Shown in pieces: positions 1,833 through 20,092 of a stretch of 64,000 nt of DNA. The notes under the pieces were generated by a model. That model was not told where the DNA came from and searched no databases. It saw nothing but the letters and a program-made list of their open reading frames with translations. The position numbers and the translations under genes were made by a program. Source of the DNA: Frateuria soli (GTDB lineage: Bacteria > Pseudomonadota > Gammaproteobacteria > Xanthomonadales > Rhodanobacteraceae); NCBI RefSeq assembly GCF_021117385.1, contig NZ_CP088252.1, positions 62,001-126,000 of the forward strand, given 5' to 3'. Positions within the stretch are counted from its first letter, which is position 1. Every line of letters starts with the position of its first letter.

Positions 1833-1981
1833 GCTTCGATCGGCCTTGTCCCCCGGCCCTGGCCACCCCCCGTTCACGGCCGATAGATCGCGGATATGAA
1901 CAATGGCGGGACGGCCGCGTGGCAAGGGCTGGCGATGCCGCCCACATTGCTGTACGATTCGGTACATTAAATATCGCAGCC

Positions 1982-2009
1982 GAAACTTTTCGCCCCTTTA
2001 GCACTCTCA
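1982..2009 (+). promoter_or_regulatory. Candidate sigma-E-type promoter of rpoH
   Basis: GAAACTTTT (core AACTT at 1984-1988) is followed after exactly 16 bases by TCTCA at 2005-2009. This resembles the extracytoplasmic sigma-E consensus (GGAACTT, N16, TCnnA). In Escherichia coli rpoH has a sigma-E promoter, so the role is plausible. Predicted transcription would start near 2015, inside the CIRCE element. This is pattern matching only. Confidence 0.45.
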
Positions 2010-2024
2010 GCAGTGGAGTGCTAA
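1998..2024 (+). promoter_or_regulatory. CIRCE element (HrcA operator) upstream of rpoH
   Basis: TTAGCACTC at 1998-2006 and GAGTGCTAA at 2016-2024 are separated by exactly nine bases. This is a perfect match to the CIRCE consensus bound by the heat-shock repressor HrcA. It lies 28 bases before the rpoH start codon and overlaps the candidate sigma-E -10 region. CIRCE is normally found before groESL and dnaK operons. Its position here implies that HrcA represses synthesis of the sigma-32 factor itself, joining the two heat-shock circuits. Confidence 0.92.
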
Positions 2025-2052
2025 GCTGCGATTTACTTGCCGGAGGTTCCAC

Positions 2053-2992: not shown

Positions 2993-3065
2993 GCAGGAGC
3001 CCACTTGTGGGCGATGCGTTTCATGCGGCCAGGGCGAGACGCATCGCCCACAAGTGGGCTCCTGC
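2993..3065. repeat. REPIN palindrome, type A
   Basis: Two 27-base arms, perfectly complementary (2993-3019 and 3039-3065), with a 19-base loop. Each arm holds its own small palindrome GCCCACTTGTGGGC. It sits between the convergent genes rpoH and tal. Confidence 0.92.
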
Positions 3066-20020: not shown

Positions 20021-20092
20021 AGGAGCCCGCTTGCGGGCGATGCTCTTTTGATGTCCTGGCCAAAAGCATCGCCGCGCAAGCGGGCTCCTGCA
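20021..20092. repeat. REPIN palindrome, type B (CCCGCTTGCGGG)
   Basis: Left arm AGGAGCCCGCTTGCGGGCGA and an inverse right arm with one small mismatch. It lies inside the same-strand cluster, between the enolase-superfamily and FAD/Fe-S genes, so it could attenuate transcription or protect mRNA ends. Confidence 0.85.

Follow-up and report, generated by a model that had tools for sequence, protein, structure and literature searches.

Which signals decide when the gene for the heat-shock sigma factor sigma-32, rpoH, is transcribed in Frateuria soli? The question is raised by a short stretch in front of this gene, where a predicted operator for the repressor HrcA and a promoter of the sigma-E type appear to share the same bases. 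We analyzed this site in its window, the whole stretch of 64,000 nucleotides of F. soli DNA considered here, and compared it with the corresponding sites in genomes of the family, order, and class.

A predicted HrcA operator overlaps a sigma-E-type promoter in front of rpoH

The open reading frame at 2053-2904 was identified as RpoH by two profiles (TIGR02392, 411 bits with a cut-off of 323.1; NF005143, 432.9 bits with a cut-off of 241), and the gene 5' of it, at 1101-1832, encodes a uracil-DNA glycosylase. Between the two lies TTAGCACTC-TCAGCAGTG-GAGTGCTAA, which matches the CIRCE operator with 0 mismatches at 1998-2024 and leaves 28 bases between its end and the rpoH ATG at 2053 (Table 1). 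A search of the 64 kb window for CIRCE at up to 3 mismatches returned this one match, and none was returned from 100 dinucleotide shuffles. The sequence GAAACTT-N16-TCTCA spans 1982-2009, with its 3' end inside the left arm and loop of CIRCE, and the more general pattern GRAACTT-N16-TCNNA occurs once in the window, compared to a shuffle mean of 0.03. The -35 box differs from the consensus GGAACTT by one mismatch, and the -10 box (TCNNA) takes its TC from the 3' end of the CIRCE left arm and its A from loop base 3. A perfect CIRCE 28 bases before rpoH, and a promoter of this form overlapping it, had both been proposed in a sequence-only reading of the locus; both were found at these positions, each as the single instance in the window.

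Table 1. Features of the rpoH upstream region, in window coordinates.
Feature	Position	Strand	Basis or remark
Predicted CIRCE operator (HrcA site)	1998..2024 (arms 1998-2006 and 2016-2024; loop 2007-2015)	+	Perfect match, kept before rpoH in relatives
Sigma-E-type -35, GAAACTT (consensus GGAACTT)	1982..1988	+	6-of-7 matches across 91 related sites almost only at spacers 16 and 17
Sigma-E-type -10, TCTCA	2005..2009	+	TC belongs to the CIRCE left arm (its last bases), the final A to the loop (base 3)
Inferred sigma-E transcript start region	2012..2018	+	Usual -10-to-start distance, from general knowledge
Upstream promoter-like block, -35 TGGCGA, -10 TACGAT, spacer 17	1930..1958	+	Family consensus TGGACA-N17-TACTAT
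Conserved block TGTACGATTCGGTACATTAAA, partly palindromic	1951..1971	+	Family comparison; single genome match at up to 2 mismatches
Outer inverted repeat around promoter and CIRCE, left arm ATCGCAGC	1973..1980	+	Inner 6 pairs kept in relatives
Outer inverted repeat, right arm GCTGCGAT	2025..2032	+	
Ribosome-binding sequence GGAGG	2042..2046	+	By eye; similar in relatives (by eye)
rpoH, sigma-32, 283 aa	2053..2904	+	RpoH family profiles

Elsewhere in the window, REP-like palindromic repeats (AGGAGCCCACTTGTGGGCGATG) produced 20 matches at up to 3 mismatches and 0 in shuffles. Most are arranged as head-to-head pairs (2995-3063, 12682, 13851, 16750, 25336, 25565, 25798, 25988, and 38576), with single matches at 20021 and 43544.

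F. soli encodes both putative regulators

The sequence-only reading considered that its proposal would fail if the genome had no hrcA or if the element were not conserved in relatives. The absence of hrcA is excluded, as the gene was detected by profile search at 307 bits (cut-off 197.2), and the absence of conservation is likewise excluded, as the element is common across the family and its order relatives. By eye, hrcA lies 5' of a GrpE-like ORF, and the genome scan detected no CIRCE at up to 3 mismatches belonging to hrcA itself. The whole genome (3.49 Mb, one contig) contains two CIRCEs at this threshold, the rpoH site without a mismatch and a site before groES with one mismatch, and the reversed control pattern gave 0 matches. 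RpoE-like and RseA-like ORFs adjoin each other at locus L006 (a sigma-70 region 2 domain was assigned by family search, and the names by eye). Inspection by eye also showed that rpoE is preceded by TGAACTT-N16-TCTGA, with the same spacing as in the rpoH promoter, and that the groESL leader carries a sigma-32-like box, CTTGAAA-N14-CCCCAC (consensus as given in excerpts of PMC545781).

Promoter and operator keep a common register within the family

The family of the compared genomes is probably Rhodanobacteraceae, and the closest named RpoH among the matches listed is that of Dyella flagellata, with 89% identity. At least one CIRCE was present in all 147 family genomes searched, and most had two among the matches listed. 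We read the region in front of rpoH in 90 of the 147, counting as an operator any site with up to 3 mismatches to one of three arm patterns (canonical, CAGTC/GACTG, or mixed). An operator was found in 88 of these 90 genomes; no rpoH operator was found in the remaining two, G006 and G055, both of which are HrcA-positive. At loop base 3, 85 of the 88 family sites have A, with the remaining loop positions variable, and the best GGAACTT-like box (at least 5 of 7) lies at a spacer of 15-17 in 81 of them.

A less redundant set of 91 sites was assembled from 48 genera of the family and order, one site per genus, plus 43 named loci. Boxes matching the -35 at 6 of 7 positions or better were located at spacer 16 in 46 sites and at spacer 17 in 15 (61 in all), compared to a total of 6 at the other 24 spacers in the range from 5 to 30. 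An A at loop base 3 accompanied the box, being present in 59 of the 61 sites with a -35 versus 12 of the 30 without (Fisher 2.5e-9, with relatedness ignored). As a control we used groESL CIRCEs from the same family; of 20 regions plus that of F. soli, 15, all from the family, were recognized by their GroES motif, and 6 regions belonging to other families were left out. One of the 15 recognized sites has A at loop base 3, no box of at least 5 of 7 was found at spacer 15-17 in any of them, and by eye they lie directly 3' of -10-like boxes such as TAGAA and TACAA. Because the A is nearly constant where a -35 is present but is found once among the groESL sites, it seems to be kept for sigma-E rather than for HrcA. 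In sequence terms, the overlap of operator and promoter looks functional.

The fused arrangement extends beyond the family

We screened 369 genomes of the class with a pattern blind to gene content, GAAC-N11/12-TTRGCACTC-NNA-N6-GAGTGCTAA. It was present in 106 of them, with one copy in each, and its reversed form in 0. We opened 30 of the 106 loci, and all 30 were upstream of rpoH (tblastn). The F. soli genome is not among the 106 because its -35 reads GAAAC. HrcA (E <= 1e-20) was detected in 269 of the 369 genomes, with 262 of the 269 above the curated cut-off, and in 103 of the 106 carrying the fused pattern; the other three assemblies are 62, 72, and 75% complete. The strict fused pattern is absent from 166 of the 269 HrcA-positive class genomes, F. 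soli included.

Direct reading of rpoH loci outside the family recovered an operator (up to 3 mismatches) in 34 of 80 places sampled from 111 in the order. The same threshold identified one in 43 of 80 named rpoH loci, the best 80 of at least 592 stretches, including Methylocaldum, Nitrosomonas, Rhodocyclaceae, and Burkholderiales. The scanned rpoH loci of Vibrio, Shewanella, and enterobacteria yielded no operator at up to 5 mismatches. The register is looser outside the family, with A at loop base 3 in 27 of the 34 order sites and 27 of the 43 named sites, and with the -35 at spacer 14 in six order sites. Among the named loci, a -35 at spacer 16-17 was present in 21 of 26 where CIRCE is at most 65 bases from rpoH, compared to 5 of 17, mostly beta-proteobacterial, where it is more than 65 bases away. 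Two designs of CIRCE at rpoH, distinguished by their distance from the gene, therefore seem to exist.

The operator arms are altered in a second family

A second family, f2 (probably Xanthomonadaceae), typically has TTAGCAGTC-N9-GACTGCTAA as its rpoH operator. Of 18 loci, 7 match this form exactly and 13 carry CAGTC in the left arm; most retain the sigma-E register. Xanthomonas pisi (L048) has the same operator type. Arms with CAGTC/GACTG at rpoH were noted at L195, L197, L188, and other f2 loci, and the second CIRCE-type sites of f2 genomes, putatively those of groESL, have mixed arms.

The residue x in the PVGSxTL stretch of f2 HrcA is glutamine (8), lysine (1), or alanine (1) in all 10 genomes with a left-arm CAGTC, one of which (G241) has the right arm GATTG, and arginine in 3 of 3 others shown; G194 is absent from this comparison. 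In f4, G149 and G195 are counter-examples to the pairing of arms with HrcA residue. The change in the HrcA helix-turn-helix is possibly linked to that in the operator arms, and the correspondence could stem from a single event on the tree.

No operator at rpoH in genomes without a detected HrcA

We compared 44 order and family genomes that were picked after their rpoH fronts had been seen. The operator was present at rpoH in 26 of 30 HrcA-positive genomes versus 0 of 14 HrcA-negative genomes (Fisher 2.7e-8, for a chosen set and with relatedness ignored). A loose sigma-E pattern was detected within 300 bases of rpoH in 11 of the 14 HrcA-negative genomes, where chance would account for about 0.02 per sequence by hand estimate. 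The clearest case is G158, in which hrcA was not found, GGAACTT-N16-TCCAA is kept, and the adjoining palindrome has decayed.

Four of the 30 HrcA-positive genomes have no regular operator at rpoH: G006 and G055 from the family, and G249 and G161 from the order, the last two with palindromes that by eye are of other spacing or decayed. Since HrcA-positive genomes exist without the operator or with misspaced or degenerate versions of it, the operator at rpoH is not essential. The rpoH CIRCE of G161 (L224), judged by eye, has a loop of 8 bases rather than 9.

A second promoter-like block lies upstream

A sigma-70 scan of the rpoH region yielded nothing, and a further conserved block emerged only through comparison. 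The block consists of TGGACA-N17-TACTAT followed by GGTTCA-TTAAA and was present in 75 of 88 family sequences, from which the template itself was built. Its best matches outside the family reach 13 or 14 of 21 positions, compared to up to 20 inside, and its 3' part has a single match in the genome at up to 2 mismatches. Judged by its letters, the block looks like a second promoter. With such a conserved block upstream, sigma-E is probably not the only input to rpoH transcription, and the block may even dominate rpoH expression. Across 1930-1971, conservation beyond the -10 (partly palindromic in the window, TGTAC-N6-GTACA) exceeds what a promoter alone explains.

Alternative readings of the element

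If the upstream block is a sigma-70-like promoter, CIRCE could act mainly as a feedback brake on it, by roadblock or repression, with the sigma-E overlap a minor matter and no real coincidence gate. The frequency of the block in the family is in line with this, as is its placement in the window, where CIRCE begins about 40 bases past the end of the upstream -10. However, the A at loop base 3 and the spacing of the -35 are explained by a sigma-E promoter and not by the upstream one, and the block is matched far less well outside the family. We regard a simple brake as unlikely, although it is the alternative that we take most seriously. A different objection, that CIRCE at rpoH is a conserved relic or a chance palindrome without a regulatory role, could appeal to the few HrcA-positive genomes that do without it (G006 and G055). 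It would have to account for retention of the palindrome in 88 of 90 family sequences, for joint change of both arms in many loci of the Xanthomonas family, and for loss of the operator where hrcA is missing, and we give it almost no credence.

The element might instead act as RNA, in which case translation or stability of rpoH would be regulated by two structures in the leader of an upstream transcript, the CIRCE hairpin and the outer stem. The leader at 1965-2056 is more stable than its shuffles (z -2.76), but a sigma-E transcript would begin within CIRCE, without the hairpin, and its predicted leader is less stable than shuffles (z +1.46). Over 25 genera, the 42 bases before CIRCE have a mean z of -1.14 versus -0.46 for the next 42 upstream (Wilcoxon 0.02), and eight genera reach means of -2 to -3.3; in the genus of the window, however, the hairpin beside CIRCE is weak (mean z -0.30), and likewise in several others. 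By eye, all 6 genomes read from the genus retain the inner 6 pairs of the outer stem, in one case with a G-T pair. That genomes without a detected HrcA also have no operator at rpoH speaks for protein binding, and we consider regulation through RNA improbable.

Some further structural observations were made at these loci. At L030, L136, L148, L026, and others, a GC-rich hairpin encloses the sigma-E -35 box and ends beside CIRCE. The arms of the hairpins around the -35 differ between several genera (genus-mean z down to -3.3), and in a common alignment the hairpins fall in different registers. An SD-to-loop pairing (GGAGGTTCC with GGAACC) was considered and rejected, as by eye it fails to track the changes in genera with GGAGGATCC.

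A proposed two-input circuit at rpoH

On the strength of these comparisons, we think it likely that the HrcA operator superposed on the sigma-E promoter of rpoH forms a 'sigma-E AND NOT HrcA' gate within a chaperonin feedback loop. HrcA requires GroEL for its activity, and sigma-E is released by envelope stress. At normal temperature, GroEL would keep HrcA active and on CIRCE, where the bound repressor would cover the -10 and the start of the sigma-E promoter, competing with sigma-E polymerase. It would also stand in the way of RNA polymerase arriving from the upstream promoter-like block, leaving rpoH low. Misfolded protein would occupy GroEL and so release HrcA. The gate would arise because the promoter would fire, and sigma-32 rise, with HrcA off and sigma-E freed by envelope stress, and the loop because sigma-32 would raise GroEL, which would reactivate HrcA and shut rpoH down.

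This arrangement suggests that two stress alarms could be combined at rpoH. The architecture behind the AND-type gate put forward in the sequence-only reading has strong support: HrcA and RpoE are both encoded, and their predicted sites overlap in a largely constant register that is retained well outside the family. Strict AND logic is something we infer from these letters, and the upstream block weakens it. The circuit may serve coincidence detection no more than it serves chaperonin feedback (RpoH -> GroEL -> HrcA -| rpoH).

Relation to known systems

HrcA and CIRCE control groESL and hrcA-grpE-dnaK with a chaperonin-responsive logic. The proposed rpoH switch would share their operator and repressor gene, but its target is the sigma-32 gene itself, and its operator covers a sigma-E-type promoter. 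Related predictions may, reportedly, be contained in 2003 work by Permina and Gelfand on beta-, gamma-, and epsilon-proteobacteria. The sequence-only reading had allowed that a CIRCE near rpoH might already have been predicted, and this caution was apt: according to excerpts of a 2004 paper, a perfect CIRCE is predicted at position -51 of rpoH in Geobacter sulfurreducens (PMC545781). That prediction concerns one species of another class, and the excerpts do not mention a sigma-E promoter. The sigma-E side also has counterparts, as excerpted texts describe the P3 promoter of E. coli rpoH as sigma-E-dependent (PMC8103513) and RpoE binding at rpoH in Vibrio alginolyticus (PMC4890791). In these species an RpoE-type promoter (GGAACTT -35; TCAAA -10) feeds rpoH (PMC8103513, PMC4890791), but unlike here, the Vibrio and enterobacterial rpoH loci scanned have no CIRCE (6 or more mismatches). 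In Xylella, HrcA was invoked for groESL in 2010, again according to excerpts (PMC3224663). We found no account of a CIRCE placed over a sigma-E promoter at rpoH in open-licence literature, including the excerpted texts of PMC545781, PMC3989490, PMC1978210, PMC3224663, PMC3135505, PMC8103513, and PMC4890791. Sigma-E control of rpoH, which is classical, and a predicted CIRCE at rpoH were thus already known, and the main new fact would be the wide conservation of the fused design as read from these genomes.

Implications for sigma-32 control in the class

E. coli was not among the matches when the HrcA profile was searched in control genomes, and to our knowledge this species has no HrcA. It is quite possible, if somewhat short of probable, that the fused switch is an old and perhaps ancestral form of sigma-32 control in the gamma/beta-proteobacterial class, lost together with HrcA in several lineages. 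The wiring of E. coli rpoH would then be derived, with translational and stability control replacing HrcA, and across much of the Xanthomonas family the operator would have changed together with its repressor (arms from CACTC to CAGTC; the helix-turn-helix arginine of HrcA to glutamine, lysine, or alanine).

The site may also offer a simple natural two-input promoter if this reading is true, since the sigma-E input should be lost through a single mutation, at loop base 3, and the HrcA input through mutations of the left arm outside TC or of the right arm. Should HrcA gate the sigma-E promoter of rpoH in a large share of the class, the rpoH promoter would sense chaperonin load directly, and the heat-shock circuit of these bacteria would work differently from that of E. 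coli, the main source of what is known about sigma-32 control.
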